Of a DNA stretch of 41,508 bases, positions 3,097-4,614 are shown in pieces. Every line of letters begins with the position of its first letter. The first letter of the stretch is position 1. The stretch comes from a virus. The stretch covers positions 1-41,508 of the IMG/VR virus record IMGVR_UViG_3300047157_000074. The stretch is one strand, 5' to 3'. The notes under the pieces were generated by a model. That model was given only the letters and a program-made list of their open reading frames with translations, did no database searches and was not told the origin of the DNA. A program made the position numbers and the translations under genes.

Positions 3097-3130
3097 ATAT
3101 TATCCGTTGTTATTCGTATTTAGTTTGTAA
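3097..3130 (-). promoter_or_regulatory. Promoter-like element, copy D
   Basis: TTACAAACTAAATACGA, a 10-nt spacer and GGATAATAT on the minus strand. It overlaps the 3' end of the 34-aa gene (residues NYKLNTNNNG, stop) and lies 6 nt before the ATG of the 48-aa gene. Confidence 0.7.
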
Positions 3131-3852: not shown

Positions 3853-3886
3853 ATTATTATCCATTAGTAGTCGTATTTAGTTTGTG
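3853..3886 (-). promoter_or_regulatory. Promoter-like element, copy E
   Basis: CACAAACTAAATACGA, a 10-nt spacer, then GGATAATAAT on the minus strand. It encodes the C-terminus HKLNTTTNG-stop of the 46-aa gene and sits 4 nt before the ATG at 3849. Confidence 0.7.
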
Positions 3887-4216: not shown

Positions 4217-4336
4217 TTAGTGAAATTCGTTATAGATTGATAGAACTTGTGATTGTTCTTGTTTAGTTAATTGAAAGACATTTTTGTCTGGAAATAGTTT
4301 GTGCGCTATTCTGATTAAAGCGGATTGATTATACAT
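4217..4336 (-). CDS. Small protein, 39 aa
   Basis: A 39-codon frame, MYNQSALIRIAHKLFPDKNV...YNEFH, preceded by TAATAATATGT-type A/T leader sequence and followed 20 nt later by the 66-aa gene. It is probably helical. There is no family match that I recognise, and its short length keeps confidence moderate. Confidence 0.5.
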   Translation of the reverse strand: MYNQSALIRIAHKLFPDKNVFQLTKQEQSQVLSIYNEFH

Positions 4337-4380: not shown

Positions 4381-4420
4381 TGACATGGTGAGAATCGAAC
4401 TCACATAAACCATTATGTCA
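4381..4420 (-). ncRNA. tRNA acceptor/T-arm minihelix
   Basis: On the minus strand, T arm GTGAG-TTCGATT-CTCAC is followed by the acceptor strand CATGTCA and discriminator A. Just upstream, TGACAT pairs with ATGTCA, so 40 nt fold as acceptor plus T arm with no D or anticodon arm. Further upstream (to about 4500) lie stems GTTAG/CTAAC and AGTGT/ACACT that might form a distorted body or leader. Promoter copy F (4537-4570) points into it and no gene intervenes, so the transcript is probably made as RNA. Confidence 0.45.
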
Positions 4421-4536
4421 TAAGTATTCAACTGTATTTATAGTGTAGAAAATACTGAACGCACACTTGTTAGATTATTATACTAACCCACACTCATTCT
4501 TGTGAAGTAATAATACTTTATTAATTACTTACATAT

Positions 4537-4570
4537 ATATTATCCAAGTATACTCGTATTTAGTTTGTAT
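4537..4570 (-). promoter_or_regulatory. Promoter-like element, copy F
   Basis: ACAAACTAAATACGA, a 10-nt spacer, then GGATAATAT on the minus strand. Unlike the other copies it is followed by ATG-TAA, not a gene, and faces the tRNA-like minihelix. A degenerate partial copy lies at about 4574-4600. Confidence 0.65.
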
Positions 4571-4614
4571 ATAGTATCCAATAGTATTTAGTGTGTAGTG
4601 TGTAGAATAGAAAA

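Follow-up and report, generated by a model that had tools for sequence, protein, structure and literature searches.

A tRNA-like minihelix in a marine phage genome

We analysed the virus record IMGVR_UViG_3300047157_000074 over its whole length of 41,508 nucleotides (nt), referred to here as the window. This 41.5-kb record derives from a marine phage and carries tailed-phage terminase, portal and virion genes. Its host is likely to be flavobacterial, since the cultured relatives of this phage infect Flavobacterium, Cellulophaga, Tenacibaculum and Maribacter. On its minus strand, at 4420–4380, lies a 41-nt element that has the form of the acceptor and T arm of a tRNA, here called the minihelix, an assignment that draws on covariation across a family of related elements. 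The 6-base-pair (bp) acceptor stem (TGACAT, 4420–4415, with ATGTCA, 4386–4381) is followed by A4414, unpaired opposite C4387, and by a GG-containing linker of 9 nt (ATGGTTTAT, 4413–4405). The linker leads into a 5-bp T stem (GTGAG, 4404–4400, with CTCAC, 4392–4388) closed by the T loop TTCGATT (4399–4393). The last base is a discriminator A (A73, 4380), and a CTA trailer (4379–4377) stands directly 3′ of it, an arrangement that the tRNAs of these phages share. The initial annotation had described the pairing of TGACAT with ATGTCA around a perfect T arm, and both helices are present on the minus strand with 6 and 5 bp. It had also pointed to a promoter-like copy upstream with no gene in between, and we likewise find no open reading frame (ORF) of at least 60 amino acids between the repeat copies and the minihelix.

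The whole window, both strands counted, contains only four T arms that have five pairs and a TTCRA loop. They belong to two real tRNAs, the minihelix and one element resembling transfer-messenger RNA (tmRNA), and ACTA follows all four. Neither a D arm nor an anticodon arm is found at the minihelix, and the spacing from acceptor to T stem is only 9–12 nt across the family. ARAGORN called no tRNA at the minihelix and the Rfam tRNA model RF00005 gave 14.3 bits (E 8.1 in 781 nt), short of the gathering cut-off of 29. The fold z-score of the region is −0.75, and the minimum free energy (MFE) fold of the surrounding 131 nt pairs the bases of the minihelix otherwise, in a competing hairpin. By itself, the window sequence leaves the minihelix statistically unremarkable and its evidence is weak.

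Conservation of shape with free sequence

A first pattern, carrying the stem letters of the window element, matched 22 stretches in viral contigs. To avoid a stem-letter bias we then specified the linker, the T loop and ACTA, with no stem letters. The pattern with a 9-nt linker matched 53 viral-contig stretches bearing 17 different acceptor 5′ strands. The T stem was complete in 52 of the 53, the 6-bp acceptor in 52 and both in 51, compared with full pairing in 11 of 622 cases when strands were swapped between elements with differing 5′ strands. With a 12-nt linker there were 33 matches, the acceptor being paired in all of them and both helices in 30 (swapped, 0 of 204). Pooling of five such patterns, leaving out a chance match (L235), gave 61 distinct minihelices with 29 acceptor strands, 55 fully paired and six with one broken pair. 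The covariation score was 0.673 for alignment A2 (25 sequences; shuffles, 0.189 ± 0.025) and 0.506 for alignment A3 (11 sequences; shuffles, 0.159 ± 0.035). Alignments A1–A3 were picked by pairing and so show 100% pairing by construction; A1 misaligned the T stems of 12-nt-linker elements and was excluded from the counts.

Both helices are kept by compensatory change, with 6 + 5 or 6 + 6 pairs and a TTCGA loop across the family. The letters that are retained are the linker GG, the T-loop TTCGA and the C that follows the discriminator. In a scan that required no trailer, 107 of 107 helices had C74; the set includes some loci recruited via ACTA and eight helices of tRNA-Gln. Conservation of the minihelix structure is far beyond chance and suggests a working RNA.

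The pseudoknot and the promoter-like repeat

The minihelix is part of a larger composite that the initial annotation had missed, comprising a tail hairpin, a pseudoknot and the minihelix itself. The H-type pseudoknot occupies 4423–4467 (minus), with stem 1 at 4467–4463/4446–4442 and stem 2 at 4456–4450/4429–4423 (AGTATTT/GAATACT). In relatives a pseudoknot often directly precedes the minihelix, and its 3′ strand mostly stops 2–7 nt before the acceptor. Several pseudoknot types follow one plan, and stem 2 covaries, appearing as ACTTGTT/AACAAGT, ACTGAC/GTCAGT (L153), AGTATT/AATACT, GATTC/GAATC, TGTTC/GAACA, CTATCC/GGATAG, CTCATC/GATGAG and CTGTCC/GGGCAG. The swap control is good for type D, with its own strands paired in five of six elements over three stem versions and in one of six when swapped, and modest for type B (13 of 15, swapped 106 of 206). 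The pattern for types A/C is too loose, most of its rows being chance, and a generic pseudoknot finder is unspecific, with 47 hits in 86 sequences and 21 in 86 letter shuffles.

Further upstream lies the promoter-like repeat ACAAACTAAATACGA, of which the window holds five exact copies and one with two mismatches, all on the minus strand. At two or fewer mismatches 0.25 matches are expected by chance and none of 100 shuffles reached six. The exact copy aimed at the composite (4554–4568) lies about 134 nt upstream of the minihelix, with the tail hairpin (4487–4469) and the pseudoknot in between, and the two-mismatch copy is at 4582–4596. The remaining exact copies are at 3871–3885, 3114–3128, 2399–2413 and 1466–1480. 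GGATAATA and then an ATG come close behind all five exact copies, at 4554 with a stop codon directly after the ATG. Leaderless mRNAs from these copies are possible, because GGATAATA and an ATG follow the repeat so closely.

Genomic setting and distribution

Across the family, the minihelix is intergenic, between a conserved gene, here called gene X, and a variable small gene. We compared 95 distinct elements together with their flanks. An ORF lies no more than 160 nt upstream in 91 of them, and in 79 of these 91 it belongs to the gene X family. The initial annotation had pictured the minihelix as first in its operon; in most relatives gene X precedes it. The gene X products are 75–77 amino acids long and form one protein family, for example the orphan 75-residue protein at L092 (5300–5076, minus), with invariant Y, C, K-Y and Y-T. 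Pfam searches with four gene X proteins found no match, bar a weak one of 13 bits below the cut-off, and PHROG gave weak matches only. The structure model is confident (predicted local distance difference test, pLDDT, 90.9), and a fold search with it returned no match at E 0.001 or better. Judged by eye, the gene X stop codon often lies inside a hairpin. From the stop codon to the minihelix there are 12–20 nt or, mostly, about 50–120 nt with an intervening pseudoknot. The next ATG usually stands 10–25 nt past the minihelix and opens the variable small gene, whose largest family accounts for 31 of 83. The corresponding ORF of the window (4217–4336, minus; 39 amino acids, MYNQSALIRIAHKLFP...) starts 40 nt past the CTA.

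Gene X itself is missing from the window. Comparison with L092, with no separate statistic, identifies the tail hairpin at 4469–4487 (minus; GTTAG, 9 nt, CTAAC, with a stop codon in the loop) as a probable leftover of the gene X 3′ end. The same comparison suggests that a deletion fused the leader to the last gene X codons, while the tail hairpin, pseudoknot and minihelix were kept. A second group (L169, L172, L176, L182 and L187) has the repeat, a pseudoknot and the minihelix without gene X between them. The minihelix RNA can persist without gene X, because the window and the L169 group keep it.

We found the minihelix in 34 of 40 viral records of at least 60 kb, 25 by model R1 (E ≤ 1e-6) and nine others by model R2, the 40 being a hand-picked subset of such records of which several had supplied sequences to R1 and R2. 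Records recruited solely via a neighbouring protein contained it in 20 of 26 cases. Two records hold two copies and all others with a minihelix hold one. Applied to 84,980 bacterial and archaeal genomes, the 9-nt-linker pattern gave five matches, one by chance and four in metagenome-assembled genomes with gene X. These four look like binned phage because gene X is also present. No similar DNA except short T-arm words was found in cultured phages, and the cultured phage collection held neither gene X nor the reduced tmRNAs described below. A descriptor scan found no minihelix in MW202828 and Flavobacterium phage elemoA 15-9B, with the first 9,274 and the last 5,395 bases, respectively, lying outside the scan. 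None was found in plasmids.

A proposed minimal tRNA-processing signal

We propose that the minihelix is a natural minimal substrate of RNase P and RNase Z that acts in cis to cut the operon transcript, and put the probability of this reading at about 0.5. The comparison shows the structure, the selection on it, its genomic place and its tRNA-like 3′ junction; the enzymes, the cuts and their purpose are inferred. Support comes from the free sequence and kept shape, from the intergenic position, from a tRNA-like 3′ junction and from the cleavage of engineered minihelices by RNase P. The family has the form of such substrates, with stacked stems of about 12 bp, a T loop and a free 3′ end with C. 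According to PMC11221534, bacterial RNase P cuts engineered acceptor/T-stem minihelices of 12 bp at near full pre-tRNA rates. The 3′ junction of the minihelix is the same as that of the genuine tRNAs of these phages, which end mostly in N-CTA (47 of 54; N-CAA in 7 of 54). Sampled flavobacterial tRNAs have C74 in 53 of 53 cases and CCA in only four.

In the proposed mechanism the minihelix would represent the acceptor/T-arm half of a tRNA, with the GG linker in the role of the D loop and no anticodon arm. The kept letters, GG and TTCGA, would be those visible to a binder of the T loop or elbow. The cut by host RNase P would fall just 5′ of base 4420; at the other end, RNase Z of the host, or trimming, would act after A4380, before CTA. 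The transcript would be divided in three. Its upstream RNA, which in relatives is the mRNA of gene X and in the window a short leader, would end a few nucleotides past the stable pseudoknot; the minihelix of 41 nt would come next, and then an mRNA that starts at a new 5′ end. The purpose may be to give gene X and its variable neighbour separate fates.

Several observations weigh against this proposal. The 3′-end preference of RNase P is for RCC, of which CTA supplies at most C74. The first acceptor pair is A-U or U-A in 100 of the 107 scanned helices, and position 7–66 is mostly mismatched among them. The usual single copy per genome would be odd for a general punctuation mark. Finally, of 55 elements folded alone, only 18 have the tRNA-like form at no more than 1 kcal/mol from the MFE, and this form would therefore require tertiary contacts or a protein.

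The initial annotation had suggested either a decoy for processing or aminoacylation, or an element defining the 5′ end of the operon mRNA. A genuine minihelix behind a promoter-like repeat is borne out, and the option of processing or of an mRNA 5′ end is the best supported. The aminoacylation decoy finds no support as far as it would act through synthetase identity, the acceptor being unconserved, with 29 different 5′ strands among the 61 distinct sequences. Pair 3:70 is mostly U-A or A-U and never a conserved G-U, and the combination of G3:U70 and A73 that marks alanine-accepting RNAs and the tRNA-like domain of tmRNA was not found in the minihelix. On these grounds a shared aminoacylation identity is unlikely.

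The cut-out minihelix, with CCA added, might instead be a stable trans-acting small RNA that occupies RNase P, RNase Z, the CCA-adding enzyme, EF-Tu or a tRNA-binding host defence. Free sequence on a kept shape is as expected for a ligand recognised by shape only, the window and the five loci of the L169 group retain the element behind its own promoter-like repeat with no gene X between, and the same phages encode other anticodon-less tRNA-like RNAs. We nevertheless consider it rather unlikely, given the usual single copy, the lack of a conserved synthetase identity and the tie to gene X in 79 of 91 elements, which trans action does not need. Doubtful, too, is that, once cut behind A73, the gene X mRNA (in the window, the leader RNA) keeps pseudoknot and minihelix as its protective 3′ end, much as some plant virus RNAs finish with a pseudoknot domain and a tRNA-like structure. 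The order of gene X, pseudoknot and tRNA-like element, the conserved A-CTA junction and the covarying pseudoknots would all fit, but many elements have no pseudoknot and start 12–20 nt past the stop codon.

As a refuting outcome the initial annotation had named a longer conserved fold with other pairings for these bases, a point that our comparison addresses in part. A competing 5′ hairpin of at least 5 bp occurs in 27 of the 61 distinct sequences, and the MFE fold of the window element with its flanks contains one. Such a hairpin, formed by the acceptor 5′ strand with the linker and T stem, could alternate with the tRNA-like fold as a cis switch controlling translation of the next gene. We regard this as improbable, since the hairpin is unconserved (3–4 bp in 34 of 61) whereas the tRNA-like pairing is conserved and complete in 55 of 61. 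The weak single-sequence signal would be in keeping with chance, a decayed tRNA or an integration-site remnant (a tRNA 3′ half), which we find scarcely credible. Chance and a decayed tRNA are rejected by the covariation, both acceptor strands changing compensatorily in many versions, and a remnant is rejected because the two strands covary. The five matches in 84,980 genomes, four on gene X contigs and one by chance, also argue against such an origin.

Relation to known systems

Some plant RNA viruses carry a pseudoknot domain followed by a tRNA-like end, an order shared by the phage composite. The phage element differs in belonging to a DNA phage, in being internal to a transcript and much smaller, and in having a tRNA-type acceptor stem rather than a pseudoknot. 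The tRNA-like domain of tmRNA (RF00023) likewise combines an acceptor, a stemless GG-containing D loop and a T arm without an anticodon; by comparison, the minihelix lacks the P2 arm, the mRNA-like part, a conserved acceptor and G3:U70. The engineered minimal RNase P substrates pATSer and MD1 are also acceptor/T arms cut by the bacterial enzyme (PMC11221534). They are man-made and end in RCCA, whereas the phage minihelix is natural, evolving and genomic, with CTA and a GG-containing linker. Host RNase P also acts on another phage RNA that is not a tRNA, the C4 antisense RNA of P1/P7, according to a title cited in PMC11143913; C4 belongs to an unrelated phage and has an antisense role. PMC11143913 itself names the RCCA interaction of RNase P.

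We found no description of a natural minihelix element in the literature searched. Minihelices have so far been laboratory reductions of tRNA and models for tRNA origin; here nature keeps the laboratory minihelix. A family kept as a shape offers a natural test of the requirements of RNase P, RNase Z, the CCA-adding enzyme and EF-Tu. If the processing proposal is right, these phages have a new way to cut their own operon with host enzymes. If the minihelix acts in trans, no natural RNA pared down to a functional acceptor/T-arm half of a tRNA would have been known before it.

Further tRNA-like RNAs of these phages

The minihelix is one of several kinds of anticodon-less tRNA-like RNA, a point that the initial annotation also missed. 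In a second class the acceptor is GGG[A/C/G]GTG / CAC[T/G/C]TCC with G3:U70 and A73, the D loop contains GG and a variable arm is present. G3:U70 is the identity rule of alanyl-tRNA synthetase, and charging of this class with alanine may be expected from it. Three tmRNAs reduced to the tRNA-like domain, of 82–83 nt (L151:7213–7294, L122:5853–5935 and L155:7426–7507), keep G3:U70 and A73. They score 64.7, 59.0 and 53.1 bits, respectively, with the Rfam tmRNA model (cut-off 47) and have no messenger part. Full phage tmRNAs are known (PMC9004378); no report of the reduced form, with the tRNA-like domain only, was found in the literature searched.

Over 41 records RF00023 gave four matches above the cut-off and 31 more below it at E ≤ 0.01, a range in which the search is unspecific, with control matches in all 14 genomes, archaea included. 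RF00023 does not match at the window minihelix. It matches the window at 2107–1868 (minus) with 21.8 bits over the whole stretch, below the cut-off. The first tmRNA-like copy here has the acceptor GGGAGTG (2107–2101) and a damaged T stem; a second has its T arm at 1890, and its acceptor 5′ strand looks degraded. Taking the minihelices and the reduced tmRNAs with G3:U70 together, we tentatively suggest, as a possibility well short of an even chance, that a lineage of marine tailed phages makes autonomous anticodon-less tRNA mimics. Host tRNA enzymes would mature these mimics, whose target in trans would be the tRNA or ribosome-rescue machinery of the host.

Another minihelix class has a 7-bp acceptor, a 15-nt linker (CTACGGTACTAAGGT and close variants) and a T arm (L130:5934, L105:5933, L125:5371, L111:6962 and L133:7185), several members being preceded by a short hairpin and AACA. 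A further tRNA-like class (L105, L111, L121, L124 and L131) has an A1-U72 acceptor, AACTAGG...TCTAGTT or a close variant, with 53–80 nt to the T stem. The sequences CAGACTGATAGAAG..., AACAGAGAGATGGCA and AAATACCGGCCTAAC recur after tRNA-like elements, at 1793–1700 (minus) in the window and at the same place in other loci, and look like further RNA families between the tRNA-like elements.
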